From NCBI RefSeq assembly GCF_001278805.1, contig NZ_CP012602.1:3383501-3447500 (forward strand): a stretch of 64,000 nt of DNA. Direction: 5' to 3'. This document shows, in pieces, positions 1,984 to 51,647 of this stretch; position 1 is the stretch's first letter, and each line of letters starts with the position of its first letter. The notes under the pieces are model-generated. The model was not told the DNA's origin. It ran no database searches and saw nothing but the letters and a program-made list of their open reading frames with translations. Source of the DNA: Bacillus sp. FJAT-18017. GTDB taxonomy: Bacteria > Bacillota > Bacilli > Bacillales > Cytobacillaceae. The translations under genes and the position numbers were made by a program.

Positions 1984-2134
1984 AAGGAAAGCGGAAGCGC
2001 CTTGCCCAGCGCCGTATGACCTGGAGTCTCTCCAACTGAGATAAAGGAAACACGAAGAGCGTAGCGATTCGATGTTGACTTATCGTAGGGCGGAGAGCGA
2101 AGGGCACTAGGCGCTAGGCGCTGGAGCTAGACAG
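1984..2134 (+). repeat. Dispersed 3' UTR repeat, copy A (type 1)
   Basis: Begins two bases after the ylbP stop codon with GGAAAGCGGAAGCGCC and ends with GGAGCTAGACA. The interior carries the type-1 block GAGATAAAGGAAACACGA ... GATGTTGACTTATCG also found in the ctaF and pdhD arrays. AGCGCC near the head and GGCGCT near the tail could close a long hairpin. It lies in the same orientation as ylbP and ahead of its terminator. Confidence 0.85.
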
Positions 2135-2170
2135 TTCTCAAAGAAAAGATATACTTTCTGATAAAAGAAC

Positions 2171-2203
2171 AAAAGCGTAAGCGCCCTCGCGCTGAAGCTA
2201 GAC
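2171..2203 (+). repeat. Short remnant of the same 3' UTR repeat (copy B)
   Basis: A 33-bp stretch joins a repeat head (AAAAGCGTAAGCGCC) almost directly to a repeat tail (GCTGAAGCTAGAC). It looks like an internally deleted second unit behind copy A. Same orientation as copy A. Confidence 0.6.
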
Positions 2204-2248
2204 GTAGACAAGTTGAATAAAAAATTTCTAATCTCATTAACAATAAAC

Positions 2249-2284
2249 AAGGCTGTACGGATTTTCTTCCGTTCAGCCTTTTCA
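2249..2284 (+). terminator. Terminator for ylbP, shared with gerR
   Basis: Inverted repeat AAGGCTG-ACGGA / TCCG-TCAGCCTT followed by TTTT on the plus strand. It sits between the ylbP repeats and the convergent gerR-type gene, so it may end both transcripts. Confidence 0.75.
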
Positions 2285-2285
2285 C

Positions 2286-2921
2286 TTACTCTACCCTTTC
2301 AAGGTTTCCAAACTTATCAATCTGAAATTTTGCTTTATGCTGGCCCTGTGCCGCTTCTTCCTTATCGGCAGCCATTTTTCTCGCCCTGTCAAGGATGGAC
2401 ATTAATGCTTGATAGTCTTCTTCAAGAGTGTTCAGCTCTTTTAACAGCCTTTCATTTTCCCTTTCAAGTTCTCGTATCCTTACAAGGGCTTGCTCATATT
2501 CATTTGCCGAATTCCCCGCGCTTGCATAAAGATTCTCTAAATAGGCCAGCACATCCTTAAATTCTGGAATTGAGGAGCCTGGGTTTGGCTGGACAGATTG
2601 AACATCCTCAACTGATTGGGAATCTTCAAGCAGTTGAACTACCGGCTGTTTTGGTGTTTCAAGCTGCTGTTCCTTGGATTCACGCGAGTTCCTTTTTGCT
2701 TCCTTGCGTTGTTTTTTTGCATGTTCAATACCAGCCTTGTATTGTTTCCTCACATGGGAATTCCATCGGAACCCGCATGCCGCGGAGGTTCTGGACAGCT
2801 TCCTTCCCACCTCCTCGAATGCCTGAAGCTGTGTGCCGCCTTCTCTTATATTGCGCAGGATTACCTCGGCTAGAAGCAGGTCTTCATCCGCGGTCCATGC
2901 GTCCTGTCGTGTCGATGACAT
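2286..2921 (-). CDS. gerR: RsfA/GerR-family sporulation transcription regulator
   Basis: 211 residues. The N-terminal third has the pattern of a Myb/SANT-like DNA-binding domain of the RsfA family ([16 protein letters not shown] ... [14 protein letters not shown]). A charged linker follows, and residues about 140-185 form a heptad-rich coiled coil ([23 protein letters not shown]). The location beside ylbP and rpmF matches B. subtilis ylbO, renamed gerR, a regulator acting in the mother cell during sporulation. The start is ATG behind GAGGGATCAGAAGG. It is monocistronic as far as can be seen. The paralog RsfA has the same domain plan, so the gerR assignment rests mainly on context. Confidence 0.8.
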
Positions 2922-3009
2922 CCTTCTGATCCCTCCTATCGTTTTACCTCATACTTATGCAGGTAATAGGAAAGATAGAATTAGTATGCAAGTCTCATTT
3001 TTTGAATTG

Positions 3010-3768
3010 CTATTTACTTTTCTCGAGGAATTTAGCCACCTGTTTATGATGGGCTTCTGTTTGCCACAGTTCTGCACAAAGCTCGACTTCTTTATCAATT
3101 CTCTCCTGTAGGCCAGCACGCTCCCATTTGTTGACCCAGACACGTTTATATCCTCCTAGGACTGCTCCTTCTCTTAAAAGCATTTCACTGCAGAATTCGC
3201 GGAGCGCGTCTGCTGGCTGACCATCAAAGACGCTGTCTATGAATCCAGTTACCGTCAGTTCCTCAACTGAATGAAGGCTTGCATCCATTACTAGCTTCAT
3301 TGCAACAGGACCTGACAGCTTTTCTGATAAAAGTGATGCACCGCCCCAGCCGGTGATGATTCCTTGCCTCCCTTGAATAAATCCAGCTTTTGCTCCTTTT
3401 GCAGCAATCCTGAAATCACAAGCTGAAGCAAGTTCGCAGCCACCGCCCACAGCAGCCCCATTCAGGACAGCGACAGTAGGTTTTAATAAGGTTGCAAGAG
3501 AGTAAAGAATGGCAGCCGCCTTAGATAGCATTGGATATGCATCCTCTTTAGTTTTTAATTTATGGAACTCAGACAAATCCCCGCCAGAGCAAAAAGCTTT
3601 TGAACCAGTTCCTGTAACCGCGACTATTTTTACCTTATCGTCCTTAGATAGTTCAATTAACTGATTCAATCCATCCAGGACTTCGAAACTAATCGCATTC
3701 CGCTTTTCTTCCCTATCGATTGTAAATAAGAGAATTCCTTCTTCGAGCATGGTAATCGTATATGCCAA
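3010..3768 (-). CDS. Crotonase-fold (enoyl-CoA hydratase/isomerase family) protein
   Basis: 252 residues from a TTG start behind GGAGGGAACGCAC. The crotonase fold shows in the oxyanion-hole segments FCSGGDLSEF (about 60) and GGGCELASACDF (about 110). The two glutamates that activate water in true hydratases appear to be replaced: the segment usually reading LPELKLGIIPGAGG is FIQGRQGIITGWGG here, and the second position holds a hydrophobic residue. It is therefore unlikely to be a standard hydratase. Decarboxylase, isomerase or thioesterase activity is possible, since the superfamily is broad. The acyl-CoA carboxylase gene lies about 2 kb downstream on the same strand, but not in an obvious operon. 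Confidence 0.8.
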   Translation of the reverse strand: MAYTITMLEEGILLFTIDREEKRNAISFEVLDGLNQLIELSKDDKVKIVAVTGTGSKAFCSGGDLSEFHKLKTKEDAYPMLSKAAAILYSLATLLKPTVAVLNGAAVGGGCELASACDFRIAAKGAKAGFIQGRQGIITGWGGASLLSEKLSGPVAMKLVMDASLHSVEELTVTGFIDSVFDGQPADALREFCSEMLLREGAVLGGYKRVWVNKWERAGLQERIDKEVELCAELWQTEAHHKQVAKFLEKSK

Positions 3769-3817
3769 GTGCGTTCCCTCCTGAAAGACTAATATGTAAA
3801 AGAATGAACTTAAAACC

Positions 3818-3965
3818 GTGATTTCGGAAAGCTCCAGCGAATTAACATCGCAGAGACAGGCGCATTTTGCCTGCCGCGAGGCGTTCTTTTCCTGTCACGA
3901 GGCGCTTCGCTTTACGCGGGCAGAAAATGCGTTTTTTGCTTTTTCGACGAGCCTCGCGTCTTCCT
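3818..3965. repeat. Diverged copy of the 43.3-kb type repeat element
   Basis: Lies in the 370-bp gap between the crotonase gene and rpmF. Positions 3841-3862 match 43341-43362 at 21 of 22 bases (ATTAACATCGCAGAGACAGG, then CG). Both copies then show a GCTTTCCG/GCTTTACG stretch and a hairpin of the GAAAATGC ... GCATTTTC type. The outer ends are not recognisable. Nothing else was seen in this gap apart from the rpmF terminator. Confidence 0.6.
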
Positions 3966-4092
3966 CTTCAATCATAGGGTATCTTCAAATCAGAATTTTT
4001 TCCATAACACTTTAAAGGCATGTTCGTCCTTTTAGCAGTGTAAGGCCCACGTAATCTCGCCATAAAGTATTTTATATTCTTTTATTATAACG

Positions 4093-4124
4093 AAAAAAGC
4101 ACAGGGGATTATCTCCCCTGTGCT
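4093..4124 (-). terminator. rpmF operon terminator
   Basis: A perfect stem AGCACAGGGGA / TCCCCTGTGCT with a short loop, followed on the minus strand by TTTTTTCG. It ends the ylbN-rpmF transcript. Confidence 0.9.
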
Positions 4125-4139
4125 TGTTCGAACGGAAAA

Positions 4140-4322
4140 TTAGTCGTTAACTACTTCTTTTCCTTTGTATGTTCCGCAAGCTTTGCAAACGCGGTGAGCA
4201 AGTTTCATTTCTCCGCAGTTTGGGCATGCCACCATTCCAGGAACATTTAATTTGAAATGAGTGCGACGTTTTCTTTTCGCAGTTTTAGAAGTCCTTCTAA
4301 AAGGTACAGCCATTCTTCCCAC
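4140..4322 (-). CDS. rpmF: 50S ribosomal protein L32
   Basis: 60 residues beginning [19 protein letters not shown] after an optional two-codon extension. The expected L32 start is the internal ATG at 4313, so the mature protein is 57 residues. The start follows a strong TAAGGAGGTGGG site, which places the ATG at 4313 at good spacing. Four cysteines in a CPNC ... CKAC pattern form the zinc ribbon, so this is the zinc-binding (C+) form. It follows ylbN with a 75-bp gap and is co-transcribed with it, as in most Bacilli. Confidence 0.97.
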
Positions 4323-4397
4323 CTCCTTAAAGAGTTATAAGAAAGTTATGAAGGCCAGAAATTGCTGGTTCTTCACTTGCTTACTTTTTTTTGCCGA

Positions 4398-4922
4398 TTA
4401 TGAATCGGATGGTTTGTTGTCGTCAAAAAACTTGGCCAGGCCAGCAAGCCTTGGATCAATTTTGTTGCGTACGTCCTCTTCGCTTACGACCTCCCAATCC
4501 TTTCCGGATTGCGGAGCCGCGCCTTCAGGATTTGCTTCGTCACTGAAAACTTGCATCGGAACTTCAAGCAACAGAATTTCCCTGATGACAGGCATCAAGT
4601 CGACCACATCGCCTTTAACCTGGTGAGCTTCCTCATCAGTTTCATATCCAGACATATTGAAAAGGAACGTTTCCGTTGTCTCTACATCAACTGGATAAAT
4701 GACATCAACTAGAGTCCGTGAACAAGGGAGGACCAGATGGCCTTTAATCCTGATATGAAAGGTCACACGCGATGACCCGATATCGGCCCGTCCGGTTACG
4801 TGAATCGGGGATACATCCCTAATGGTTGGGTCAGTTTCCCTAATCTCGTCCGCACTCACTGTATCATCAATCAGCATTTCCTTGTTGCGGTTTTTTTGTA
4901 GTTGGCTAATTGTCCATTTCAT
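4398..4922 (-). CDS. ylbN: YlbN, DUF177/YceD family protein
   Basis: 174 residues from ATG behind GGGGTGATG. The family (DUF177, E. coli YceD) almost always lies just upstream of rpmF and is linked to ribosome/23S rRNA maturation. The core motif region FLFNMSGYETDEEAHQVKGDVVDLMPVIRE is present in the second half; the N-terminus carries the usual hydrophilic MKWTISQLQKNRN. It is the first gene of the ylbN-rpmF operon, driven by a near-perfect SigA promoter about 30 bp upstream. Confidence 0.92.
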   Translation of the reverse strand: MKWTISQLQKNRNKEMLIDDTVSADEIRETDPTIRDVSPIHVTGRADIGSSRVTFHIRIKGHLVLPCSRTLVDVIYPVDVETTETFLFNMSGYETDEEAHQVKGDVVDLMPVIREILLLEVPMQVFSDEANPEGAAPQSGKDWEVVSEEDVRNKIDPRLAGLAKFFDDNKPSDS

Positions 4923-4949
4923 TTACATCACCCCAAGGCAACAAAGGTA

Positions 4950-4978
4950 ATTATACTTTTATGCATACTATTTGTCAA
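4950..4978 (-). promoter_or_regulatory. Consensus SigA promoter for ylbN-rpmF
   Basis: On the minus strand TTGACA, a 17-bp spacer and TATAAT, both hexamers perfect. Transcription would begin about 20 nt ahead of the ylbN start codon, which is fitting for a strongly expressed ribosomal operon. Confidence 0.9.
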
Positions 4979-5162
4979 TATTTTTTCTTTACACCGAAAT
5001 TGCAGGTGCAATCAGTGTTTTTAACATTTTAATTTCCTTCCTAAATAGTTTATCCCTAATATAGCTGAAGGAAACATTATAGCATACAGGAGCTGTTTTA
5101 CTTAAGTGGTATTGATGATTTATAGTAGAAAGAAGAAATTCAGTAGAAAGGAGGCTACACTT

Positions 5163-6380
5163 GTGAATGCTGTCGGGATTGTAGTTGAATATAATCCTTT
5201 TCATAACGGTCACTTATACCATCTTCACGCTTCAAAAGAAATCTCTGGTTCAGATATTGTCATCGCCGCGATGAGCGGCAACTTCCTCCAACGCGGGGAA
5301 CCTGCGCTCGCCTCAAAGTGGTCCCGTGCAAAAATGGCGCTTTTGAATGGAGTGGATATTGTATTCGAGATTCCTTACCAATACGCTGTACAAAAGGCTG
5401 AAATTTTTGCCTCAGGAGCTGTTTCAATTTTGCAGGCTGTGGGTTGTTCAAGTTTATGCTTTGGAAGCGAAGCAGGTGATGCCGCCAATTTTATTAGCAC
5501 AGTGGAATTCCTCGAAGAACACGAGGAAGAATTTAATTCTTTTATTAAGAAGCATATGAAGTCCGGGGTCAGTTACCCTCGGGCAGCTTCTCTTGCACTT
5601 TCGGAATTAAATGGGCCGGATGGAATGATCCCGCTTTCCCAGCCAAATAATATACTCGGCTTCCATTATGTAAAAGCCATTCGTGATCAGGGCAGCAGCA
5701 TGAAGCCCTTAACTGTAAAAAGAAAAAACGCCCAGTACCACGATGAAGACTTCTCATCAGCAACTATTGCAAGCGCAACAAGCATCAGAAAAGCATTTTT
5801 TTCCGATGCACTTGATATACCGGCAATCTCAGCCTATATACCCACAGCCTCAGCCAGCGTACTGCAGGAATATATTAATACATACGGAAGTCTGCATCAA
5901 TGGGAGCAGTATTGGCCTTTGTTAAAGTATAAATTGCTTCAGGCAAGGCCTGGTGAATTGGCTGGCATTTATGAAGCCGAGGAAGGCCTTGAAAATCGTC
6001 TTGCTGAATGCGCAAGGAAGGCAGATACCTTTGCCAGCTTTATGGAGCTTGCTAAAACCAAGCGCTATACATGGACAAGGATACAGCGTCTTTGTACACA
6101 CATTCTGGTTAATGCTAATAAGAGCGAAATGGACGTCCGTGATGGAGGGCAGCCTGGTTATTTGCGTTTGCTCGGAATGACTGCTTCTGGCAGGAGCTAC
6201 CTGAACAAAATGAAAGGAAGTTTCCCTATCGAGCTTGTTTCAAAGCTTTCAGGATTCTCTAATCCGGGTATAGAGCTTGATACCCGTGCTGCATCTATTT
6301 ACTCGATGGCCATTCCAGGCAGCAACGGACAAAGATTGCTGAAACTTGAGTACAGGCAGCCACCTATATACATAGAGTAA
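5163..6380 (+). CDS. tmcAL: tRNA(Met) cytidine acetate ligase
   Basis: 405 residues from GTG at 5163, chosen because AAGGAGG lies eight bases upstream and the family begins right there (VGIVVEYNPFHNGH). The HxGH-type nucleotidyl-transferase motif NPFHNGHLYHL is at about residue 12-22. This is B. subtilis YlbM/TmcAL, which activates acetate with ATP to make N4-acetylcytidine at the wobble base of elongator tRNA-Met. Further conserved stretches are MSGNFLQRGEPA and the basic region TWTRIQRLCTHI. Divergent from ylbN and convergent with ylbL. Confidence 0.95.
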   Translation: MNAVGIVVEYNPFHNGHLYHLHASKEISGSDIVIAAMSGNFLQRGEPALASKWSRAKMALLNGVDIVFEIPYQYAVQKAEIFASGAVSILQAVGCSSLCFGSEAGDAANFISTVEFLEEHEEEFNSFIKKHMKSGVSYPRAASLALSELNGPDGMIPLSQPNNILGFHYVKAIRDQGSSMKPLTVKRKNAQYHDEDFSSATIASATSIRKAFFSDALDIPAISAYIPTASASVLQEYINTYGSLHQWEQYWPLLKYKLLQARPGELAGIYEAEEGLENRLAECARKADTFASFMELAKTKRYTWTRIQRLCTHILVNANKSEMDVRDGGQPGYLRLLGMTASGRSYLNKMKGSFPIELVSKLSGFSNPGIELDTRAASIYSMAIPGSNGQRLLKLEYRQPPIYIE

Positions 6381-6423
6381 AATGTGAGCGGATATCCCAG
6401 TCCCGCACGTTTCCTTAAAAGCG

Positions 6424-6456
6424 AAAAAAAGAGATGAAGCGCTAAACCGCTTCATC
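6424..6456 (-). terminator. ylbL operon terminator overlapping its stop codon
   Basis: Perfect 9-bp stem GATGAAGCG / CGCTTCATC with a 6-nt loop. On the minus strand it is followed by TCTTTTTTT. The ylbL stop codon (6452-6454) lies inside the upstream arm, so termination and translation stop are interlocked. Confidence 0.9.
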
Positions 6457-7480
6457 TTCCTTCTTTTTCAGGCTTTAATTTTTCCAGATAGTCGACAGCG
6501 TCATCAAAGGTATCGACCGGTACAATTTTCATCTTGGTACCAATATCTTTGGCAGTCTTTACGGCAGCCCTGTAATTTGAGTCCTTTGCTCCTTTTTGAT
6601 TTGGTGCAAAGAAAATATCGGCTCCTGCTTTGTCAGCTGCGACAATTTTTTGCTCAATCCCGCCTATCGGCCCTACAATTCCTTCGGATAAAGTACCCGT
6701 TCCGGCGATTTCATATCCTTTTGTCAAATCGTCCTTGGTCAGCTGGTTGTATATTTCCAACGAGAACATCAATCCTGCTGACGGACCGCCTATTTCATCC
6801 GTTTTTATCTCAACTTCCGGCTCAACAATGATTTCCCTGTCATCAACAATTGCTACACCAAGTCCTGCACGTTTTGGATCCTCTTTAAATGTTTCTAATT
6901 CAACGCTTACTGTTCTCTCTTTGTTATTCCGTGTAAGGACCAATTCAACTGATTCCCCCGCTTTTTTCTCAGCAAGGTACTTCATGAACTCATCCCTCGA
7001 TTTTAACGTTTTTCCATCTACCTTCAACAGCCGGTCACCAACTTCAAGTTTCCCTTCCGCAGGCATCCCAGGAACGACTTCCATCACATACACACCATTA
7101 TAGCGATAATCCACTGGTAAGCCAGCCTTCGTATAGGCAGCCTCAATGGCGCTTGCTTTCGATCCTTCCATTAAATGAAGCTGCTTTTGATTGTATTCCT
7201 GTTCACTTTCATCGGGTCTTAGTATATCCTCCAGAGGATATACTACCTGATATTTACTGAAGGTTGCCATCAAATAGGTGTAAATATTAGCCCTGCCCAT
7301 CCTGACTGTTGTCAGCATAAAGCTTCCTTTCTCATCATATCCACCTTCCACTTCAATAATGGGTTCAAGCTCCTTTGCTAGTCCAGGCTTGGAAATATAA
7401 TAGGGAAGCGTATAAAAAACGCTTGCCAAAACCAGGACCGCCGCAAGGATCCAGGGCATCCGAGGGTATTTCTTGCGCAT
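6452..7480 (-). CDS. ylbL: PDZ-Lon-type membrane serine protease YlbL
   Basis: 342 residues: an N-terminal signal anchor (about 8-26), a PDZ domain (about 120-190, VYVMEVVPGMPAEGKLEVGD) and a C-terminal Lon-like protease domain with the catalytic serine in GGPSAGLMFS and the lysine in GGIEQKIVAADKAGA. It is a homologue of SepM and B. subtilis YlbL, an extracytoplasmic protease reported to act with CtpA on the SOS division inhibitor YneA. The start codon sits directly on the ylbK stop (TAG ATG), so the two are translationally coupled. The usual length is about 340 residues. Confidence 0.95.
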   Translation of the reverse strand: MRKKYPRMPWILAAVLVLASVFYTLPYYISKPGLAKELEPIIEVEGGYDEKGSFMLTTVRMGRANIYTYLMATFSKYQVVYPLEDILRPDESEQEYNQKQLHLMEGSKASAIEAAYTKAGLPVDYRYNGVYVMEVVPGMPAEGKLEVGDRLLKVDGKTLKSRDEFMKYLAEKKAGESVELVLTRNNKERTVSVELETFKEDPKRAGLGVAIVDDREIIVEPEVEIKTDEIGGPSAGLMFSLEIYNQLTKDDLTKGYEIAGTGTLSEGIVGPIGGIEQKIVAADKAGADIFFAPNQKGAKDSNYRAAVKTAKDIGTKMKIVPVDTFDDAVDYLEKLKPEKEGR

Positions 7481-8263
7481 CTACTGCTGCTCCTTCCACC
7501 GTCCAATAACTTGCCTTATCGGTTCGATATGTTTTCGTGCTTCTTCTTCTCCTATTTTAATGATGTCTTCGATATTGGTAAAGGCACGCGAACTGAATTT
7601 GCCTACTGAAGGGCGGATCATGATGTCAGAAGCGACTTCGCGATTAACCAACAGTTCTGCCTGCATAATGTCTATGCTCTGCATAATTACATCATAGATC
7701 GAATCGATTTCCGCATTTTGTTTGACGCCGGAAACATCGACCGCAATGACGATGTCTGCTCCCATCTCTTTTACGACTGAAACAGGAATCCTATCTGCAA
7801 CACCTCCATCAACAAGAATTCTGCCGTTTATTTTTTCAGGAATAAAGATGCCCGGGATTGAAATGCTTGCCCGTACTGCATCGGCAGCAGGACCGGTTGT
7901 AAAAACCACCTTTTCCCCGTTCATCAAATCTGTTGCGACAATGGCAATCGGCAAATTAAGATCCTCTATATTTTTGTTATGGGTGAAAACCCTGATAAAC
8001 TCCTTTACCCGCTTACCTGCAATAAAGCCCATCTTGGGTACGGCAAAGTCAAGAAAATATTTCCGTTTAAACCCAATCGAGAATTTATAAAACCGATCCA
8101 AATCTATGCCGGTCCCATACAAGCATGCAATAAGCGCTCCCATGCTGCTACCGGCAATCATGTCGATAGGTATTCCCTCATCTCGGAATACCTTTATTAC
8201 ACCGAGATGGGCAAACCCCCTCGCCCCGCCGGAGCCGAGCGCCAAGCCGATTTTTGGGGCCAT
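7481..8263 (-). CDS. ylbK: Patatin-like phospholipase/esterase YlbK (RssA family)
   Basis: 260 residues. The patatin signature is complete: oxyanion loop GSGGARGFAHLGV at the N-terminus, nucleophile elbow AGSSMGAL (GxSxG) near residue 40 and catalytic aspartate in LVDGGVADR near residue 152. It is predicted to be a cytoplasmic or membrane-associated serine hydrolase whose substrate is unknown. Starts at ATG behind GGAGG and is directly followed by ylbL with no gap, the same pair as in B. subtilis. Confidence 0.93.
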   Translation of the reverse strand: MAPKIGLALGSGGARGFAHLGVIKVFRDEGIPIDMIAGSSMGALIACLYGTGIDLDRFYKFSIGFKRKYFLDFAVPKMGFIAGKRVKEFIRVFTHNKNIEDLNLPIAIVATDLMNGEKVVFTTGPAADAVRASISIPGIFIPEKINGRILVDGGVADRIPVSVVKEMGADIVIAVDVSGVKQNAEIDSIYDVIMQSIDIMQAELLVNREVASDIMIRPSVGKFSSRAFTNIEDIIKIGEEEARKHIEPIRQVIGRWKEQQ

Positions 8264-8461
8264 ATCCTTGCTGCCTCCTCTAAAGTGGATACCGTGATTA
8301 AATCTCCTTCAATCTTATGGTCTAAATAAATATTCTATGAGTATATTGTTTTACAGGGACAAGGCTTTGCCTGCCCGGTTCCCGACAGTGCTAAAGCCAC
8401 ATTGTTCAAATCATCCGTAACACCCTGAAATACTCCGCCATTCTCCTTAAGGAGGCCCTAT

Positions 8462-9673: not shown

Positions 9674-9702
9674 TAGTGAAATTCAGCTTATTAGGCCATA
9701 TG

Positions 9703-9730: not shown

Positions 9731-9731
9731 A

Positions 9732-10788
<1,057 letters not shown>

Positions 10789-11139
10789 GTCTATCACCGC
10801 TCATTACTATTTACTATTTCATAATCCTACCATACTTGCAGGACCTCGCCAAATCCCAAATGAAATTTGACAGCTCCTGAAAATTTTGTGGAAAAATGTG
10901 TATAAGCATTGCATCACTGGAGATAATGACAGTAACAACATCATTGAGGATGTTGTTGCCAACCGCGGAGAAGACTTACGTTTCCCCATAAGTTCTTCCT
11001 CCGGTTTCTCCTCTCCCTTTGCCTTCTGTCCCTTTGGGATATAGAAGGACCCTGCAGGATTCCTGCGGGGTTTTTTCTTTTTTGCCGTGGACATCTATGC
11101 TAATGTTAATTTATATACTAAACCGAAGGAGAGTTTCCT
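10789..11139. other. Non-coding gap with plus-strand terminator and 9-bp hairpin
   Basis: No convincing gene is found in these 351 bases. There is a perfect 9-bp inverted repeat (AACAACATC / GATGTTGTT, 10934-10957). Further on is a plus-strand terminator-like hairpin near 11049-11075 (CCCTGCAGGATTCCTGCGGGG then TTTTTT) with no annotated plus-strand gene ahead of it. A 21-codon ORF starts at 10926 behind GGAG. A small plus-strand RNA between about 10900 and 11080 is possible. A 91-codon minus-strand reading frame starting at 11094 has no ribosome site and a low-complexity lysine-rich start; I do not call it. Confidence 0.4.
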
Positions 11140-11532: not shown

Positions 11533-11698
11533 AAGGAAAGCGAAAGCGCCTGGATCAGCGCCGTATGGCCTCCTCGAAAATCACTTTACGGCTATCGCGT
11601 AATTTCGTGCGATGTATTTCGGGGACGCTTTCCTTGTCTATCACTTTTTCTTCGTGCGAAGCCTATGCTGCTGAAGCCTTCCCTATGGAGCTAGACAG
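11533..11698 (+). repeat. Dispersed 3' UTR repeat, copy D (type 3)
   Basis: Head AAGGAAAGCGAAAGCGCC begins three bases after the stop codon at 11529; the tail is GGAGCTAGACAG. The interior shares GCTATCGCGTAATTTCGTGC with copy F at 33.7 kb, so these two form a third unit type. Same orientation as the gene, and located before its terminator. Confidence 0.85.
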
Positions 11699-11725: not shown

Positions 11726-11751
11726 AAAGTGAGGGGATGCCCCCTCACTTT
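11726..11751. terminator. Bidirectional terminator, overlaps ylbG stop codon
   Basis: Stem AAAGTGAGGGG / CCCCTCACTTT around a 4-nt loop. Serves the plus-strand DUF7147 transcript and the minus-strand ylbG, whose stop codon overlaps the stem by two bases. Confidence 0.9.
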
Positions 11752-21136: not shown

Positions 21137-21172
21137 AAAAAGAAAATCGGCTTGCGCCGATTTTCTTTTTTT
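21137..21172. terminator. Bidirectional terminator ending ctaF transcript
   Basis: Perfect 9-bp stem AAAATCGGC / GCCGATTTT with a 4-nt loop and U-rich flanks on both strands. For the minus-strand ctaCDEF transcript it lies past the repeat array, so the array is transcribed. Confidence 0.88.
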
Positions 21173-21194: not shown

Positions 21195-21221
21195 AGCTAA
21201 ACGGGAACTTCCGCTTTTCTT
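21195..21221 (-). repeat. Truncated third unit of ctaF 3' UTR repeat array
   Basis: On the minus strand, the head AAGAAAAGCGGAAGTTCCCG and then TTTAGCT; the unit breaks off after 27 bp. Its head matches unit 1 of the same array (GAAGTCCCCGTTTAGC). Confidence 0.75.
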
Positions 21222-21407
21222 TGTCCAGCTGCAGCGCCGAGTCCCTCGAGGTTGCTTCGGTCCCTCAGTGGAAGTCAAAGAACAACTTCCTCTTTGGGCC
21301 ACCCACAAGAGTATGCTTCGGAAGCATACTCATCGCACGAAGAAAATGCGTTTTTGCATTTTCGAGGAGTGCTTCTCGGGACTGACCACGGCGCTTCCGC
21401 TTTTCCC
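21222..21407 (-). repeat. ctaF 3' UTR repeat unit 2 (type 2)
   Basis: Runs from GGAAAAGCGGAAGCGCC to CTGCAGCTGGACA on the minus strand. It contains a perfect 11-bp hairpin, GAGTATGCTTC / GAAGCATACTC (21309-21331), and a GAAAATGC / GCATTTTC hairpin. It shares the block TTCTTTGACTTCCACTGAGG with unit 1 of the pdhD array. Confidence 0.85.
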
Positions 21408-21556
21408 TGTCTAGCTGCAGTCCCCACCGCCTAGTGTCCTTCGGTCCCCTCACTACGATAAGTCAACATCGATTCACTACGTTCATCGTGTTTCCTTTAT
21501 CTCATGTCGAGGCCCTCCAGGCCATACGGCGCTAAACGGGGACTTCCGCTTTTCTT
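21408..21556 (-). repeat. ctaF 3' UTR repeat unit 1 (type 1)
   Basis: Begins one base after the ctaF stop codon with AAGAAAAGCGGAAG and ends CTGCAGCTAGACA. The interior matches copy A and unit 2 of the pdhD array: GCGCCGTATGGCCTGGAGGG and GATGTTGACTTATCGTAGTG. Confidence 0.88.
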
Positions 21557-21557
21557 G

Positions 21558-33729: not shown

Positions 33730-33816
33730 AAAAGCGCAAGCGCGCTCCTCCAGTGAGCTATCGCGTAATTTCGTGCGATGCAATTTCGGAGAAGCTTTCC
33801 TTGTGGAGCTAGACAG
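33730..33816 (+). repeat. Dispersed 3' UTR repeat, copy F (type 3)
   Basis: Directly after the ylaI stop codon: AAAAGCGCAAGCGC ... TGGAGCTAGACA. The middle is nearly identical to copy D (GCTATCGCGTAATTTCGTGC). Shortest full unit at about 87 bp. Same orientation as ylaI, ahead of its terminator. Confidence 0.85.
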
Positions 33817-33854: not shown

Positions 33855-33893
33855 AAAACACCCCCTGATCGAATTCCATCAGGGGGTGTTTTT
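33855..33893 (+). terminator. ylaI terminator (3' of the repeat)
   Basis: Perfect 13-bp stem AACACCCCCTGAT / ATCAGGGGGTGTT with an 8-nt loop, then TTT. Confidence 0.93.
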
Positions 33894-41846: not shown

Positions 41847-41855
41847 TGATTAATA

Positions 41856-41889
41856 TAAAAACAGGATTCCAAATGGAATCCTGTTTTTA
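41856..41889. terminator. Bidirectional terminator of speA and SR1-like RNA
   Basis: Perfect 10-bp stem ACAGGATTCC / GGAATCCTGT with a 4-nt AAAT loop; U-runs on both sides. Confidence 0.93.
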
Positions 41890-42082
41890 TATTGAAAAAT
41901 AGTTGATTTTTAAAGATCCTCATCGTGAGAATGGCATTTATTGCAGGAGCACTTTGAATAAAGTACAGTTACTTTTTCATCTTCAAAATGATCAATCGTT
42001 GAATTGCAATCTTGGCATACAATTGTTCCCATCTTGATCAACTCCTCTTTGAGTTCGGAATAGTTAGTAGTATTTGTTTCTT
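41857..42082 (-). ncRNA. SR1-like dual-function small RNA
   Basis: The unit has its own promoter (TTGATT, 17 bp, TATTAT at 42089-42117), a predicted start near 42082 and a strong terminator, giving about 225 nt (B. subtilis SR1 is about 205). It encodes the SR1P peptide and lies beside speA as in B. subtilis. SR1 is known there to base-pair with ahrC mRNA and, through SR1P, to stabilise gapA operon mRNA. Base-pairing activity here is not tested. Confidence 0.8.
41910..42032 (-). CDS. SR1P peptide, GapA-binding
   Basis: 40 codons from ATG at 42032, seven bases after GAGGAG. The opening MGTIVCQDCN and the following EDEKVTVLYSKC match SR1P of B. subtilis, a 39-residue peptide encoded on the SR1 RNA that binds GapA and promotes RNase J1 binding. 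This copy ends with an unusual Cys/His-rich tail (CSCNKCHSH), giving CxxC plus CxCxxC, so metal binding is likely. RnjA is encoded about 11 kb away. Confidence 0.88.
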   Translation of the reverse strand: MGTIVCQDCNSTIDHFEDEKVTVLYSKCSCNKCHSHDEDL

Positions 42083-43268: not shown

Positions 43269-43525
43269 TGTTGATTTCCGTTACAGAAAGGAAACTCCTG
43301 AGAATTTTCATCGCAGTGACACAAGGAAAAGCAACCCTAAATTAACATCGCACAGACAGGCGGCTCTTTGCCTGGCTCAAGGCGTTTCGCTTTCCGTGGG
43401 GCTGGCGGTGAGCGTGTCTAGCTGCTCCCACAGGACGCTGAATAATCGTCACTAAAAAACACCGCAGGAGAAAATGCGCCCTTTGCATTTTCGAACGAGT
43501 CTTCAGCCTTCCGCTCCAATCAACA
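43269..43525. repeat. 257-bp MITE-like element with TGTTGATT terminal inverted repeats
   Basis: Bounded by TGTTGATTTCCG on the left and CCGCTCCAATCAACA on the right; TGTTGATT and AATCAACA are perfect inverses. The interior holds GCTTTCCGTGGGG, typical of repeats I recall between genes in many Bacillaceae, and a GAAAATGC ... GCATTTTC hairpin. No coding capacity. It fills most of the 496-bp gap between the DUF1885 gene and the next; the remaining bases hold nothing recognisable. Confidence 0.75.
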
Positions 43526-43931: not shown

Positions 43932-44133
43932 CGGATCACCAGCCTGTAATAATCAAGCAAGCGAAAGGCGCTTCCTTATTGGATTATATGCAGGTGTATC
44001 CTTGTCTATTTTTCATTTCTGTAACATTTAGATGACAACCAAAGTTTGTAAAAATTACTGTGATAAAATAAGGGCGATGTAAGAGAAATATTCATACGGG
44101 GGTAAATTCCGGAAAGAAAATGGAGGCAAATTG

Positions 44134-44517
44134 ATGAAGGCTTTTCCTCTTTATATACTTGTTTTAGTCCTAGTAGTCACATCATCCTGCAGCAGAGACA
44201 ATCATGATAAACTACCCCTGGATAAAAATATCAAACAGGTTATATTCTTTTCGGAAGAGAATCAGTATGAACATGAAGCGGCGTACTATGACGCCTTAAT
44301 TGAACTAAAAAAGGAATATCCAAATGAAATGGAAAACCTTATGGTTCTCTCCGAAAAGGAATACTTTGATGATTTCGATATTCCTTCAGGCCCGGCGCTG
44401 ATTGTTATTTATAAAGAAGAAATTATGGTAAAGATAAATGGAGACGTGTCAAAAGATCAAATTTTCAAACCAGTATCCCAGGCATTTTCTACCTCCAAAC
44501 CTTTAAAAGCAAATTAA
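44134..44517 (+). CDS. slp: Small peptidoglycan-associated lipoprotein
   Basis: 127 residues from ATG at 44134, seven bases after TGGAGG. Signal peptide with lipobox VTSSC (Cys near 20). The remainder looks like a small thioredoxin-like fold by pattern (KQVIFFSEENQYEHEAAYYDALIELKK, then GPALIVIYKEEIMVKINGDV), but no CxxC is present. It lies between pdhD and speA, the place of B. subtilis slp. Convergent with pdhD. Confidence 0.82.
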   Translation: MKAFPLYILVLVLVVTSSCSRDNHDKLPLDKNIKQVIFFSEENQYEHEAAYYDALIELKKEYPNEMENLMVLSEKEYFDDFDIPSGPALIVIYKEEIMVKINGDVSKDQIFKPVSQAFSTSKPLKAN

Positions 44518-44545
44518 AGCCCTTCCCACAGCGGGAAGGGCTTTA
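44516..44545. terminator. Bidirectional terminator slp / pdh operon
   Basis: Perfect 12-bp stem AAAGCCCTTCCC / GGGAAGGGCTTT with a 5-nt loop, starting at the slp stop codon. For pdhD it lies beyond the repeat array, so the array is inside the pdh transcript. Confidence 0.88.
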
Positions 44546-44578
44546 TCTATAATATTTGTGCTTTAGCACCCGGTGACC

Positions 44579-44618
44579 AGGCCATACGGCGCTGAACGGG
44601 AGCTTCCGCTTTTCTCTC
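44579..44618 (-). repeat. Truncated third unit of pdhD 3' UTR repeat array
   Basis: On the minus strand AGAAAAGCGGAAGCTCCCG, then TTCAGCGCCGTATGGCCTG; breaks off after about 40 bp, in the same general place as the truncated unit in the ctaF array. Confidence 0.78.
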
Positions 44619-44773
44619 TGTCCAGCTGCAGCTCCCAACGCCTAGTGTCCTTCGGTCCTCTCACTACGATAAGTCAACATCGAATCGCCCTTAAGGGGCT
44701 CTTCGTGTTTCCTTTATCTCATGTCGAGGCCCTCCAGGCCATACGGCGCTGAACGGGAGCTTCCGCTTTTCTT
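44619..44773 (-). repeat. pdhD 3' UTR repeat unit 2 (type 1)
   Basis: Runs from AAGAAAAGCGGAAGCTCC to AGCTGCAGCTGGACA on the minus strand, with the type-1 interior (GACATGAGATAAAGGAAACA and GATGTTGACTTATCGTAG). Nearly identical to unit 1 of the ctaF array apart from an inserted CCCCTTAAGGGC palindrome. Confidence 0.88.
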
Positions 44774-44894
44774 TGTCTAGCTGCAGCGCCTAGCCCCTCG
44801 AGCGTTTCAGTCCCTCAGTGGAAGTCAAAGAACGACTTCCTCTTCAGGCCCTCCAACGCTTGTCGGGGCTAACCAAGGCGCCTCCGCTTTTCTT
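44774..44894 (-). repeat. pdhD 3' UTR repeat unit 1 (type 2)
   Basis: Begins one base after the pdhD stop codon with AGAAAAGCGGAGGCGCC and ends GGCGCTGCAGCTAGACA. It shares the block TTCTTTGACTTCCACTGAGG with type-2 unit 2 of the ctaF array. Confidence 0.88.
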
Positions 44895-44895
44895 A

Positions 44896-46305
44896 TTACT
44901 TCATGATGTGGATTGGGTTACCTAGTGCAACTTCTGCAGTTTCCATTGTAATTTCACCAAGTGTTGGATGCGCATGAATTGTCATGGCAACATCTTCAGC
45001 TGTCATCCCGCCTTCAATAGCAAGACCAAGCTCAGAAATCATGTCTGATGCACCTGCACCCGCAATTTGGCCACCAATTAGCAAACCATCTTCCTTACGG
45101 GTGATAAGCTTCATAAATCCGTCTGACTCGTTAAGAGAAAGAGCACGGCCGTTAGCTGCAAATGGGAACTTGGCTGCAACGACTTCAATACCCTCTTCTT
45201 TTGCTTGCTGCTCTGTGTATCCAACAGAAGCCAATTCAGGATCTGAGAACACAACGGCAGGAATTGCAAGGTAATCAATTTCAGAAGGATGGCCAGCAAT
45301 CGCTTCAGCTGCAATTTTAGCCTCATAAGAAGCTTTATGTGCCAGCGGAGGACCTGCAACAACATCACCAATAGCGTAAATGTTGCTTACACTAGTGCGG
45401 CATTGCTTATCAATCTTGATAACTCCGCGATCAGTCATTTCGACTCCAGCTTGTTCAAGTCCAATTTCATCCGTATTAGGACGGCGGCCAACCATAACGA
45501 ATACATAATCAGCATCAATTTTCTTTTCTTCGCCTTTTACTTCATATGTTACAGTTACGCCATCTTCTCTTTCTTCTACACCTTTAGCAAGTGCTTTAGT
45601 AACAACCTCAGCACCTTTTTTCTTAAGGTTCTTCTTAACTAATGCAGACATTTGCTTTTCAAATCCATTGAGGATTTCGTCCGCACCTTCAAGAATGGTT
45701 ACTTTCGTTCCAAAGGCAGCGTAAGCACCGCCAAGTTCAGTACCGATATAACCACCACCGATTACAACAATGCTCTTAGGAAGTTCCTGAAGGTTTAGAG
45801 CGCCTGTTGAATCGAGAACACGTTTAGAGTATTTGAACGCTGGAATCTCGATTGGACGGGATCCTGTAGCGACAATAGCATTTTTAAAAGTATAAGTTTG
45901 AGATGACTTTTCGTCCATGACTTTAAGTGTATTGGCATCTACAAAGTATGCTTCACCATACACAACATCTATTTTATTTCCTTTTAATAATCCCGCAACT
46001 CCACCTGTCAACTTCTTCACAACGCCCGCTTTGAACTCTTGTACCTTTGAGAAATCCAAAGTGACATTTTCAGCTTTAACACCCATATCTTCTGAATTTT
46101 TCGCATGTTCATAACGGTGTCCCGCAGAAATTAGAGCTTTAGAAGGAATACAGCCGACGTTTAGGCAAACACCGCCAACAGTCCCTTTTTCAACAACCGT
46201 TACTTTTTGGCCAAGCTGTGCGGCACGGATGGCGGCAACATATCCGCCAGGGCCCGCGCCGATTACTATTGTATCTGTTTCAATTGGAAAATCTCCTACT
46301 ACCAT
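44896..46305 (-). CDS. pdhD: Dihydrolipoamide dehydrogenase (E3) of pyruvate dehydrogenase
   Basis: 469 residues. FAD-binding [17 protein letters not shown], redox-active disulfide [18 protein letters not shown]-binding [20 protein letters not shown] second site [16 protein letters not shown] and C-terminal catalytic His-Glu dyad ([15 protein letters not shown]). Reoxidises dihydrolipoamide using NAD+. ATG behind GGAGGGG, three bases after the pdhC stop. Last gene of pdhABCD; its 3' UTR holds the repeat array. Confidence 0.98.
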
Positions 46306-46308
46306 GTT

Positions 46309-47670
46309 TTACCCCTCCATTAACAAGAGTTCTGGATCGTTCAATAAACGCTTGATGTGGTTCAATGCATTTTGTGCAGTTGCACCATCAATCATCCTGT
46401 GGTCAAAGCTTAGCGACAATGCAAGTACACGCGCAGGTACAATTTCACCATTTCTTACTATTGGTTTCTCCGCAATTCGGCCTACACCAAGGATTGCTAC
46501 TTCCGGATGGTTGATTACTGGAGTAAACCATTGGCCTCCAGCAGATCCGATATTTGAAATTGTACAAGAAGCACCTTTCATTTCGTTCGGTGCAAGTTTG
46601 CCATCACGTGCTTTTCCTGCAAGCTCATTAATTTCATTAGAGATGGAGAAGACTGACTTGCGGTCCGCATCTTTAACTACTGGCACCAACAAACCTTTTT
46701 CAGTATCTGCTGCAATACCAATATTGTAGTAATGCTTATGAATTATTTCACTGGTTTCATCATCTAATGATGTATTCAACGCAGGGAATTCACGCAATGC
46801 ACTTGTCAAAGCCTTAACGATATAAGGCAAGAATGTGAGCTTAATGCCTTTTTGGGCAGCTACTTCTTTGAACTTTTTACGATGATCCCAAAGCTTCGAA
46901 ACATCAACTTCATCCATAAGAGTAACGTGTGGTGCAGTATGTTTCGAATTAACCATTGCTTTTGCAATAGCCTTTCTAATTCCGCTCATTTTTTCCCTTG
47001 TTTCAGGGTACTGTCCTTCTGGAACAACTGTAGCTGCCGCTTTAGTTTCTTCTTTTGCTTCAGCAGCTTGGGCAGCAGGTGCTGCTTGTGCAGGAGCTTG
47101 GGAAGCCTGGCCGCCTGCAAGGAAAGTATCGATATCGCCTTTCAGAACTCGGCCGTTGTTTCCAGTACCAGCTACCATACGGATATCCACGCCTTTTTCA
47201 CGAGCGTATTTCCGTACAGAAGGCATTGCAATTATCCTGCGGTCAGGGTCAACTTCAACCTGTGGAGTTGCCGCTGCGCCAGCGCCTGTTGCGCCAGTTG
47301 CCTCAGGAGTCTTAGCCTCTTCTTTTTTAATATCCTGTCCTGCTTCAAGAGTGGATTGGACCTGAGCTTCTGTTTTCTCCTGTGCAGGAGCTTCATCAGT
47401 CTCGTCACCTTTGAATGACATATTTTCATATCCAGGTGCATCAAAAGTTATTAGTACTTGTCCAACAGTTGCAACTGTACCTTCACCGACCATTACATCA
47501 AGTACAGTTCCTTCTACTGGAGACGGAATTTCAACAACAGCTTTATCGTTTTGTACTTCACAAAGAACATCGTCTTCCTGTACTTTATCGCCTGGCTTTA
47601 CAAACCATTTGACGATTTCTCCTTCATGAATGCCTTCACCGATGTCAGGCATTTTGAATTGGAATGACAT
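46309..47670 (-). CDS. pdhC: Dihydrolipoamide acetyltransferase (E2)
   Basis: 453 residues. One lipoyl domain (1-75) with the lipoylated lysine in [12 protein letters not shown]; an Ala/Pro/Glu-rich linker; E1/E3-binding domain near 135-170 ([23 protein letters not shown]); a second Ala-rich linker; acetyltransferase domain (about 225-453) ending with the active-site [14 protein letters not shown]. It forms the 60-mer icosahedral core. ATG behind TAGGAGGG. Confidence 0.98.
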
Positions 47671-47697
47671 GAATTCACCCTCCTAAAATTTTCGCAA

Positions 47698-47742
47698 GCC
47701 TGCCGCCACAATCAAGGGCAGCCCTAACAGAAGCGGTCAGGC
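47698..47742 (-). other. Stable intercistronic hairpin between pdhB and pdhC
   Basis: Arms AGCCTGCCGC and GCGGTCAGGC pair with one mismatch, with an internal GGGC-A-GCCC mini-stem in the loop. It lies in the unusually long 100-bp pdhB-pdhC gap, while all other pdh gaps are 3-4 bases. A processing or stability element is likely, setting E1 versus E2/E3 levels. Confidence 0.55.
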
Positions 47743-47770
47743 CTGCATAAAACGCGGTATTTTCCTCAAT

Positions 47771-48748
47771 TTAGAATGAAAGAACCTTTTTGGCTGTTTC
47801 GATAATATCTTTATAATTTGGAAGCCATACTGCTTCTGCTTGCGGGAATGGGAATACTGTATCAGGTGCTGCAACACGCAATACAGGTGCTTCAAGGCTA
47901 AGGATTGCACGGTCGTTGATTTCCGCGACTACCTGAGCTGCAACACCAGCCTGCTTTTGAGCTTCCTGGACAACAATCACACGGCCTGTCTTCTCAACCG
48001 ATGCAATGATTGTTTCAATGTCAATTGGCCAAACAGTACGAAGATCGATAACTTCAGCAGATTGGCCTTCTTTTTCAAGCTCTTCTGCAGCCTTCAATGA
48101 CTCATGAACCATTGCACCATAGGTTACAATAGTTATGTCTTTACCTTCACGCTTTATATCGGCTTTCCCTAGTGGAATTGTGTACTCCTCTTCAGGAACC
48201 TCCTGGCGGAAAGAGCGGTATAACTTCATATGCTCCAAGAAAATGACTGTATCATTATCACGGATAGATGAAATCAATAGACCTTTTGCATCATAGGGAG
48301 TTGAAGGGATAACAACTTTAACACCTGGTGTTTGAGCCATCAACCCTTCAAGGCTATCTGCGTGCATATCTGGAGTATGTACTCCACCACCAAAAGGAGA
48401 ACGGATTGTTACAGGTGAAGTGTAACGGCCTCCTGAACGGTACCGCATACGCGCCAATTGGCCGGCAATTGAATCCATGACTTCGAAAACAAACCCGAAG
48501 AACTGGATTTCTGGAACGGGACGGTATCCTTGTAAAGCAAGGCCGACAGCCAGGCCGCCAATACCTGATTCCGCAAGCGGAGTGTCAAAAACGCGGTCTT
48601 CGCCAAATTCGGCATGAAGGCCTTCCGTCGCACGGAATACACCGCCGTTTACGCCCACATCCTCACCGAATACTAATACATTCGGATCATTACGCAATTC
48701 TGTGCGCAATGCATCAGTAATTGCTTGAATCATTGTCATTTGCGCCAT
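47771..48748 (-). CDS. pdhB: Pyruvate dehydrogenase E1 beta subunit
   Basis: 325 residues, the usual length. Transketolase-like domain with [37 protein letters not shown] and the C-terminal [18 protein letters not shown] and [13 protein letters not shown] motifs. It forms the alpha2beta2 E1 with PdhA. Starts at ATG with AAAGGAG at a long spacing of 12 bases, within the end of pdhA. Confidence 0.98.
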
Positions 48749-48751
48749 GGC

Positions 48752-50181
<1,430 letters not shown>

Positions 50182-50187
50182 AAATCG

Positions 50188-50217
50188 AGTGTACAACATA
50201 TTCAATAAACCCGTCAA
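50188..50217 (-). promoter_or_regulatory. Candidate SigA promoter for pdhABCD
   Basis: TTGACG, 18-bp spacer, TACACT on the minus strand. It is the best promoter-like pair in the gap between ykyA and pdhA. Confidence 0.6.
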
Positions 50218-50339
50218 TCATATTGCTTCACAAATTTGTAACTATATCAATATTGGAATATAATTTCGCTTTTCCTCAAACTGTACCATTGGTAACCATA
50301 CACCTGTTTCACTTTGTATGCATAAAAAATTATACTAAA

Positions 50340-50371
50340 AAAAGAAGACAGCCAGTAACCCCGGCTGTCTT
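50340..50371 (-). terminator. ykyA terminator overlapping its stop
   Basis: Perfect 9-bp stem AAGACAGCC / GGCTGTCTT with a 9-nt loop followed on the minus strand by CTTTTTTT; overlaps the ykyA stop codon. Confidence 0.9.
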
Positions 50372-51044
50372 AAGATTCGTTTTTACCATCAAGACCCGCT
50401 AATTTAAAGAAAGCTAGCTTTTCTTGGTTGTATTTTTCCGTCAATTCATTGAATTGCTTATTGGCTTCCAAAACGTTTGTATATGACCCGTTCACCGAGG
50501 TAATCTGGCCTTCAAGATCCTTAAGGTTGACATCCTTGGTTTTGAGTAAAGTATACAGCTTTTGGTCATTTTCAATAGCAATCATATATTCTTTGTACAG
50601 CTTTTCATGCGCCAAATATCTTTTCTCCATTGTCGCAACGAGCAATTCTGCTTTTTCTTTTAATTTCGGATCTTTTATTTCCTTCAGATGATCTGCTGCT
50701 GCACCAAACTGTTTGCGGGATTCGTCAAGGCTTTCCTTTTCGAGAGCTATATGTTCTTTCCTTTTATCCACAAGCTTTAACGCCTCATTGGACAGCTTCT
50801 CCACTTGGTCGAATTCCTTCTGTCCCATTTCCACTATTTGATCAAAAAGCTCTTTTTCCTTCTTTTCCAGCTCAACTAAAGGTCCCTGTTGCTCCTCAAA
50901 CTTTTTCTCGGCAGCAACGGCCTTTTCCATAACATCATAGATTTGTTCAGCAGGAGATTTTTGGCCAAGGCATCCAGCCAGCAAAACTAAAGGAAGAACC
51001 AGGCAGAAAACAATCCGCAAGAATTTCAGTGAGGAAAATTTCAC
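50370..51044 (-). CDS. ykyA: YkyA-type lipoprotein
   Basis: 224 residues from GTG. Signal peptide with lipobox LLAGC (Cys near 25), then an almost wholly alpha-helical, Lys/Glu-rich region with coiled-coil character (VELEKKEKELFDQIVEMGQKEF). It matches the putative cell-wall-binding lipoprotein YkyA, located upstream of pdhA in B. subtilis as here. The role is unknown; in B. cereus a relative affects sporulation or wall functions. Confidence 0.9.
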   Translation of the reverse strand: MKFSSLKFLRIVFCLVLPLVLLAGCLGQKSPAEQIYDVMEKAVAAEKKFEEQQGPLVELEKKEKELFDQIVEMGQKEFDQVEKLSNEALKLVDKRKEHIALEKESLDESRKQFGAAADHLKEIKDPKLKEKAELLVATMEKRYLAHEKLYKEYMIAIENDQKLYTLLKTKDVNLKDLEGQITSVNGSYTNVLEANKQFNELTEKYNQEKLAFFKLAGLDGKNES

Positions 51045-51257
51045 GTTAATACCCTCCTATCATAACACTTATACTATATCGGTACTTGCCGTTTTTGACA
51101 ACTTCCGTCGATTCAGCTTGTCCGTATTAAAGATATTCGGGGCTAGAAGAATGTATGTCTGGGCATCGGCCCAAACTTTTATTCTGTTTCTGCATAGGCT
51201 GTAATAATCCCCCGGGGCTTTTGTCCATGGGAGGCAAATTTATGAGGAGGGGCTTGA

Positions 51258-51389
51258 ATGTACGGTTATTATGGGCATTGTGGATACGGATATCCGGGCG
51301 CAGTTGGCGGAGTTGGCTTTGGCAGAGGCTTCGCATTGATTGTAGTCCTGTTCATCCTGCTGATTATCGTGGGTTGCGCCTGGCTATAA
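51258..51389 (+). CDS. YjcZ-family sporulation peptide
   Basis: 43 residues from ATG behind GAGGAGGGGC. Gly/Tyr-rich N-terminus ([18 protein letters not shown]) and a single C-terminal membrane segment [18 protein letters not shown], the typical YjcZ/YrrS-type plan. Such peptides are made in late sporulation and may be small membrane or coat components. Not in this place in B. subtilis. Its stop codon is directly followed by 3' UTR repeat copy I. Confidence 0.88.
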
Positions 51390-51390
51390 T

Positions 51391-51647
51391 AGAATGCGGA
51401 AGCGCCTCGGTCATCGCCGTACAAAATGGAGGGGCTTCGACTGAGATAAAGTGAAACTTCCATCAGCGATTTTTGCTGATGGTTAGTTGAACGAATCGGA
51501 CCTTTAGGATCAGTTGCCGACGGAGGAGGCTTACTGAGCCTTAAGAGTGGGATAAAGGAATCACGAAGAGCGTTAGCGCATTCGTGCATGACTTATCGCA
51601 GGGAGGAGACCTGAAGTTTGCGCACGCGTAGGCGATGTAGCTAAACT
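51391..51647 (+). repeat. Dispersed 3' UTR repeat, copy I (diverged, about 257 bp)
   Basis: Starts one base after the YjcZ-type stop with AGAATGCGGAAGCGCC. Contains two type-1 segments (CTGAGATAAAGTGAAAC and GGGATAAAGGAATCACGAAG, then GCATGACTTATCGCAGGG) and a CATCAGCGA / TTTGCTGATG hairpin, and ends in the altered tail GATGTAGCTAAACTA. Same orientation as the gene, ahead of a terminator. Confidence 0.75.

Follow-up and report, generated by a model that had tools for sequence, protein, structure and literature searches.

Repeat loci in the window

The stretch of DNA analysed here (the window) covers 64,000 nt of the Bacillus sp. FJAT-18017 genome (G000:C1:3383501-3447500, contig NZ_CP012602.1; the source genome, G000, is a single contig of 5.27 Mb) and carries a dispersed hairpin repeat at six loci, behind the genes ylbP, DUF7147, ctaF, ylaI, pdhD and YjcZ, as they were labelled from sequence alone in an earlier note. 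All six copies described there were found at the same positions and on the strand of the upstream gene, and the hairpin reported 3′ of the element is likewise present at 6/6 loci. In window coordinates, the features are as follows:

1982–2168, + strand: family I element behind ylbP, with head, module-free rod core, tail and family-specific 3′ extension
2166–2205, + strand: minimal element (only head and tail) immediately following the ylbP copy and shared with the congener G301
2250–2282, + strand: terminator-type hairpin after the ylbP elements
11533–11698, + strand: element behind the DUF7147-type gene
11729–11750, + strand: terminator-type hairpin after the DUF7147 element
21195–21556, − strand: ctaF array of three head-to-tail units, the last truncated and without a tail
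21141–21168, − strand: terminator-type hairpin after the ctaF array (by eye)
33730–33816, + strand: short ylaI element with one module-B-like insert
33857–33893, + strand: terminator-type hairpin after the ylaI element
44579–44894, − strand: pdhD array of three units, the last truncated and without a tail
44516–44546, − strand: terminator-type hairpin after the pdhD array (by eye)
51391–51647, + strand: family II element with nested module C behind the YjcZ-type gene
51651–51681, + strand: terminator-type hairpin after the YjcZ element (by eye)

The head at each locus is (A)AAAGCGNAAGCGCC or a variant of it. It had been placed within about four bases of the stop codon; the proximity holds, with a somewhat wider measured distance of 0–6 nt, and at ylaI the G of the head is itself the final base of the TAG stop. 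The tail is AGCTAGAC at ylbP, DUF7147 and ylaI and AGCTAAAC at YjcZ, after which the hairpin follows. In the ctaF and pdhD arrays AGCTAGAC or AGCTGGAC closes each inner unit, and the hairpin comes next after the shortened final unit. In general, the repeat begins with AAG(AAC)AAAAGCG and ends with AGCTAGAC plus an extension, the head-to-tail length being mostly 25–470 nt.

Placement in the genome

The exact head, AAAGCGNAAGCGC, occurs at 95 sites in the genome and its reversed sequence at none. Placement was scored in stretches covering all 95 heads and in 14 control stretches (together, the sampled sequence), with genes called by our own hexamer model, which missed some small genes such as ylaI. 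Of these heads, 39 lie 0–12 nt behind a same-strand stop codon, compared with 2.7% expected from intergenic positions (p about 1e-35), so that the adjacency is not due to chance. It is, if anything, understated, because diverged heads escape an exact match (the stop-proximal units of ctaF, pdhD and YjcZ are outside the 95) and later units of arrays are counted as non-adjacent. The stop codons ahead of the 39 adjacent heads are TAA 27, TAG 11 and TGA 1, compared with 62, 21 and 17% (TGA 16.9%) in called genes. For other Bacillales we collected at least 80 loci; 17 were set aside as non-Bacillales by title and 3 edge matches were skipped. Among the matches listed, 21 of 69 heads lie 0–12 nt behind the stop codon of a reading frame that is open for 70 codons or more, a count without a matched control, and these 21 stops are TAA 17, TAG 4 and TGA 0. 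The pooled set (n = 60) contains TAA 44, TAG 15 and TGA 1 (p 2e-4 against the 16.9% TGA of the source genome).

The stop-codon rule is thus strong genome-wide, yet not universal. According to the earlier note the repeat is always gene-oriented, a claim that fails the genome-wide orientation test proposed along with it: 34 of the 95 heads lie between convergent genes, 7 between divergent ones, and those in co-directional gaps are divided into 26 sense and 28 antisense. Convergent gaps are overused (34/95 heads versus 241/1168 gaps of at least 30 nt, p 6e-4). Inspection by eye showed that a few copies follow a tRNA-like end or a terminator, or closely precede a ribosome-binding site; element L065 (G000:C1:5130727) begins a few nucleotides past a putative tRNA 3′ end and not past a stop codon. 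The head-to-tail orientation leans towards the lagging strand (64/95 heads; 24/34 in convergent gaps, p 0.024). Between 1.3 and 2.63 Mb, the latter being the terminus position set from gene strand, 33 of 41 heads are on the minus strand; about two thirds of the called genes are leading.

A more general rule than stop adjacency concerns the tail, which is directed towards a terminator-type hairpin. In the 61 of the 95 heads covered by this test, a hairpin of −12 kcal/mol or better was found within 130 nt past the tail in 38 copies, compared with 33 of 150 control windows, and in the 110 nt ahead of the head in only 9. The median distance from AGCTAGAC to the start of the stem is 35.5 nt in family I (stem found in 14/25) and 60 nt in family II (20/36), approximately the length of each family's 3′ extension; in the short forms it is 9 nt from the tail (8/28). 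Since the stems begin where the family-specific extension ends, the 3′ boundary of the element tends to lie at the terminator foot, and the element would sit on a stop codon when that downstream terminator serves the upstream gene.

The repeat is distributed unevenly among Bacillales. In 299 sampled genomes of the order, the number of exact heads ranges from 0 to 121 and is patchy within genera; 40 genomes hold 20 to 121 heads and 154 hold at least one, although single matches may be due to chance.

Fold and covariation

Three module-free elements each form one rod of −55 to −63 kcal/mol per 146–148 nt (z −4.5 to −5.5), and the antisense strands of the same three copies fold 8–13 kcal/mol more weakly. 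In an alignment of 30 distinct copies (A1; 2 of the 32 core-length elements were left out for carrying modules), the rod comprises 45 pairs, with 96% of the cells paired and 11 pairs having changes on both sides, and none of 500 shuffles was as good on four of five measures. The structure tested was the minimum-energy fold of one member, which biases the percentage paired upward; the double changes and the cross-genus arm test depend less on the choice of fold. RNAalifold, run on A1, missed the second outer helix. Across genera this helix is swapped wholesale (AGCCCC/GGGGCT, ATCGAC/GTCGAT, AGCGAC/GTCGCT, AGACAC/GTGTCT and others), and 25 of the 31 cross-genus arm sets pair at 6/6 positions, compared with a mean of 6.3 and a maximum of 12 after shuffling; the other six (three with 5, two with 4 and one with 3 pairs) were kept, and the 31 are not fully independent, since some share a genus. 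On the sense strand there are 69 G.U cells versus 8 A.C cells, an excess that points to the head-to-tail strand as the folding strand. Taken together, these data show that the head-to-tail strand folds into one long rod that is kept by covariation among copies and across genera, and they support the long-range AGCGCC/GGCGCT stem proposed earlier.

Presence and absence in close relatives

The congener G301 is 94–97% identical to the source genome over the aligned window blocks. In this comparison 40 of 52 anchors were mapped (the 12 unmapped ones are not thereby absent) and 40 of 78 candidates were scored. At the site of the larger ylbP element, which has TAAA flanks on both sides, the same place is empty in G301 and G305; the YjcZ element, flanked on both sides by TATAA, is also absent from these two genomes. 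G305 is empty at DUF7147 and ylaI as well, and the DUF7147 element has an ortholog in G301 with 119 nt of additional module-A units inside. The ctaF site has only a head remnant in G301 and is empty in G302. The ylaI copy of G301 is without the insert, there is no recognisable copy in G305, G300 or G302, and G303 has a fragment at most. The pdhD array lacks one 121-nt unit in G301, and the site is empty in G300 and G302. Expressed as absence in mapped relatives, this amounts to 2/2 for YjcZ and the larger ylbP element (G301, G305), 3/4 for DUF7147, at least 3/5 for ylaI, 2/4 for pdhD and 1/5 for ctaF. Because the YjcZ and larger ylbP elements are absent from both mapped relatives, their gain in the source lineage is the simpler reading.

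Comparison of the G000 and G301 stretches yielded 65 clean indels, 27 of them with the head motif. Whole elements present on the G000 side lie behind a stop codon in ten cases: ylbP, YjcZ, 339048, 2002394, 2455006, 2523565, 2692867, 3598687, 4445085 and 5170037 (YjcZ and 2455006 were placed by eye; 54541 and the G301-side cases were outside the called-gene placement). Three further G000-side differences, at 3458429, 1644475 and 1662730, have no stop codon ahead, and the 3458429 element directly adjoins the A-tract of a terminator. At 339048 and 5170037 the empty allele has TAG and the filled allele TAA. Short A/T candidate duplications (TAAA, TATAA, TAA, TATA) can be read at several sites. Close relatives thus differ by the presence or absence of whole elements between a TAA or TAG stop and a terminator stem, and these empty and filled orthologous sites support the suggestion that the repeat inserts in the stop-to-terminator interval. 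The copies are young or patchy.

Internal modules

Besides whole elements, internal modules differ singly between orthologous elements, in both directions and without scars, the shorter allele being uninterrupted. Module A is 58–59 nt long and sits at CCTT^GG; G000 carries the additional copy at 1371728 and 2918258, and G301 carries it at 2121726 and 3018794. Module B measures about 57 nt and sits at GCGCT^GGAG; the genome with the additional copy is G301 at 825329 and G000 at 2918258. Module C, about 106 nt long and sited at GATAAAG, is additional in G301 at 1462824. A 147-nt form of module C, found in G301 at the counterpart of 1464887, is flanked by ATAAAG on either side, and neither a head nor a tail lies within 40 nt of it. 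A census of the sampled sequence of G000 and G301 gave 122 matches of the module A/B type (47 A, 40 B and 35 unassigned), whose contexts recur, and nesting of B in B and of A in A was seen. The 3′ extension of family II contains TTATCCACA, the 9-mer of the DnaA box, or near variants of it (e.g. in L024, L033 and L048). A DnaA-box role was considered and set aside: exact TTATCCACA in the sampled sequence falls in family II tails in only 7/35 cases in G000 and 4/16 in G301.

Modules also occur outside the six loci. Module-A-type sequence (GACAGGC...GCCTGTC hairpins), with a head-like start at most, is found on the minus strand at window positions 3820–3960 and 43290–43490, and both of these regions differ in G301. 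At 61140–61200, G301 is ∼500 nt longer and has a distinct structured repeat, ending in GGAGCGGAAATCA, that hosts a module-A-type unit, which indicates that modules are common to different parent repeats; a relative of this repeat lies near G000:1715937.

Nature of the repeat

We consider it likely that the repeat as a whole is a non-autonomous, modular mobile hairpin element, probably a genomic parasite and not a regulator of the adjacent gene. A folded single strand would be inserted in trans at the A/T-rich foot of a terminator hairpin, into a TA-containing target, and the head would land on the stop codon when the terminator belongs to the upstream gene. The fold would be kept by selection for spreading and not by a function at each site; if it is needed for movement, the covariation would come from the spreading copies. 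An alternative, raised in the earlier note, is a functional 3′ untranslated region (UTR) RNA, a rod that is transcribed with the gene, protects or processes the 3′ end of the mRNA and is kept for that purpose. The better fold of the sense strand (by 8–13 kcal/mol in three copies), the excess of G.U over A.C cells, the covariation and the placement ahead of a terminator are all consistent with such an RNA, but antisense copies are equally common in co-directional gaps and the copies vary between close genomes. Furthermore, at eight orthologous loci with the same form in both genomes, there are 18 changes among the 701 paired sites and 9 among the 426 unpaired ones, and the pair is lost in 15 of the 18 paired-site changes. 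The stems of these copies decay like the loops, without visible constraint, and the young or patchy copies likewise speak against a 3′ UTR function, which we regard as unlikely.

Several observations weigh against a mobile parasite with a selected fold. The test of constraint in place was small (8 loci, 18 stem changes). The antisense strands, too, give more stable folds than shuffled sequences (z −3.5 to −4.3), further pair types stay within the range of shuffles (202/500), and two nearly fixed columns account for 52 of the 69 G.U cells. The lagging-strand tendency in part reflects gene strand. Some of the differences between genomes are losses: G301 apparently retains scraps of the element at 1644475 and 1662730, and at 3250450 its tail is present and the head gone, which is clearly a loss. 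Such partial losses weaken the case for gain, whereas the two-relative absences at YjcZ and ylbP strengthen it. At several sites 1–35 nt were replaced, with the terminator kept, instead of a clean insertion, and across the compared sites no uniform target duplication was found, the candidates being short and A/T. No clear terminal inverted repeat was seen by eye in families I and II. Finally, searches for reverse transcriptase, IS630-type DDE and Y1 transposases did not find the mover; other transposase families were not searched.

Among possible movers, a Y1 (HUH) transposase of the RAYT (REP-associated tyrosine transposase) type, acting on a REP (repetitive extragenic palindrome)-like element, is possible but doubtful. 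A Y1 transposase (PF01797) is found in 8/8 congeners, with two intact genes in G000, stand-alone genes that we presume to be RAYT-like, and the hairpins, the fixed asymmetric insertion sites and the lagging-strand tendency would fit single-strand transposition. However, neither of the two intact genes is flanked by the repeat, although an isolated tail-like AGCTAGAC was seen ∼1.1 kb away from one gene. One of the two G000 genes has a relative in 171 of the 299 genomes of the order, in 28 of the 40 copy-rich ones (at least 20 heads) and in 143 of the other 259, a weak association (p 0.09), and of the 12 copy-rich genomes without this relative, six lack any PF01797 match (five of these are listed as 100% complete and one as 80%). 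The current presence of Y1 need not mirror its presence when the copies spread, as the gene may have been lost later. A miniature inverted-repeat transposable element (MITE) of the IS630 type with TA target duplication, like the pneumococcal RUP, would explain the use of TAA and TAG and hardly any TGA stops, as well as the several sites, some only of those compared, readable as A/T duplications that contain TA. The IS630-type DDE domain (PF13358, DDE_3), however, has no match in any of the eight congeners, and the ends of families I and II show no clear inverted repeat by eye. Sharing of terminal inverted repeats with a resident insertion sequence (IS) was likewise not found: no clear inverted repeat was seen by eye, three larger insertions showed no element ends, and DDE_3 had no match in 8 genomes (other IS families were not searched). 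The IS630-type MITE is largely refuted for this genus, and we hold it to be very improbable.

The stop codon may be a site of ribosome-linked mRNA cleavage, and a retroelement resembling a short interspersed nuclear element (SINE) could spread through RNA from such sites. The sense orientation at stops with TGA nearly absent, the change from TAG to TAA at 339048 and 5170037 and the sense-strand fold with its G.U pairs would all agree with this. Yet reverse transcriptase (RVT_1), found in 4 of 8 congeners, has no match in G000, although G000 holds copies absent from its relatives, and 28 of the 54 co-directional copies are antisense; we therefore consider a retroelement extremely unlikely. Rather unlikely, in our estimate, is a hierarchical system in which the hairpin modules themselves move, landing scarlessly at their own fixed sites inside other modules and so building up a branched folded strand, while the complete assembly is targeted to a terminator foot, often on a stop codon. 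It would need none of the tested enzymes (reverse transcriptase, IS630-type DDE or a Y1 common to all genomes) and so may use a host replication or repair function or an unrecognised transposase. An autonomous parent was sought among three larger indels and rejected: their frames, as judged by eye, are ligase-like, glycosidase-like and unassigned, and they have no element ends. In phages and plasmids, one family I element had no blastn match, and the matches listed from a 15-mer scan of viral contigs are presumed to be due to chance.

Relation to known repeats

Closest in kind to the mobile hairpin repeat, judging by its description, is EFAR of Enterococcus faecalis, palindromic miniature elements that are variably assembled from many sequence types, insert into stem-loops and partly replace them; the Bacillus repeat, in contrast, keeps the downstream terminator and shares its outer frame across Bacillales. 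Variable numbers of internal modules between fixed ends, as found here, are also typical of BOX. The BOX elements of Streptococcus pneumoniae consist of boxA, boxB and boxC, with boxB absent or repeated, and, like the Bacillus repeat, are modular, intergenic, structured when transcribed, over-represented between convergent genes and presumed mobile (PMC3049150). However, the Bacillus repeat also nests modules in modules, each at its own recurrent site, and its heads lean to the lagging strand (64/95) whereas about 61% of BOX elements are on the leading strand; terminal inverted repeats and a proposed partner IS are features of BOX but were not found here, and abutment on stop codons is not mentioned in the portion of that source available to us (PMC3049150).

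REPs are short palindromes, located mostly downstream of genes, of 20–40 bp with a GTAG or CGTC tag; the ends of GTAG REPs often supply a TAG stop, and GT pairs are frequent in their stems (available part of PMC3733652). The Bacillus repeat is longer (mostly 30–470 nt), modular and untagged, and has no consistent Y1 partner; the two intact RAYT-like genes are unflanked by it. Conserved stem-loops characterise two other repeat families from Bacillus, Bcr1 in the Bacillus cereus group and Bhal-1 (74 bp, 36 copies) in B. halodurans (accessible part of PMC2267715); Bhal-1, likened by description only, could be a relative of the present repeat. Among the matches listed, the literature on Bacillus-type interspersed repeats contained no description of this family, although it may have been described earlier, and an exact-sequence search of the literature returned, among the matches listed, unrelated subjects only. 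We file the repeat as a modular interspersed repeat, set apart from BOX, REP and the IS630 MITE, whose defining partners or ends were looked for and not found.

The repeat adjoins many ordinary genes. As close relatives vary both in entire elements and in individual modules, its mover could be traced by genetics. It also calls for caution, since neither strong covariation nor a recurrent place in the 3′ UTR is proof of a function for the host.

Other features of the window

At the gathering score, Rfam gave five matches in the window and five element-bearing loci, none of which overlaps an element. Those in the window include, on the minus strand, the ylbH leader (RF00516) at 10963–11080 and the SR1 small RNA (RF02376) at 41853–42079. 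At 56705–56803 there is a 46-nt repeat in two tandem copies, and G301 has more copies at the same place.

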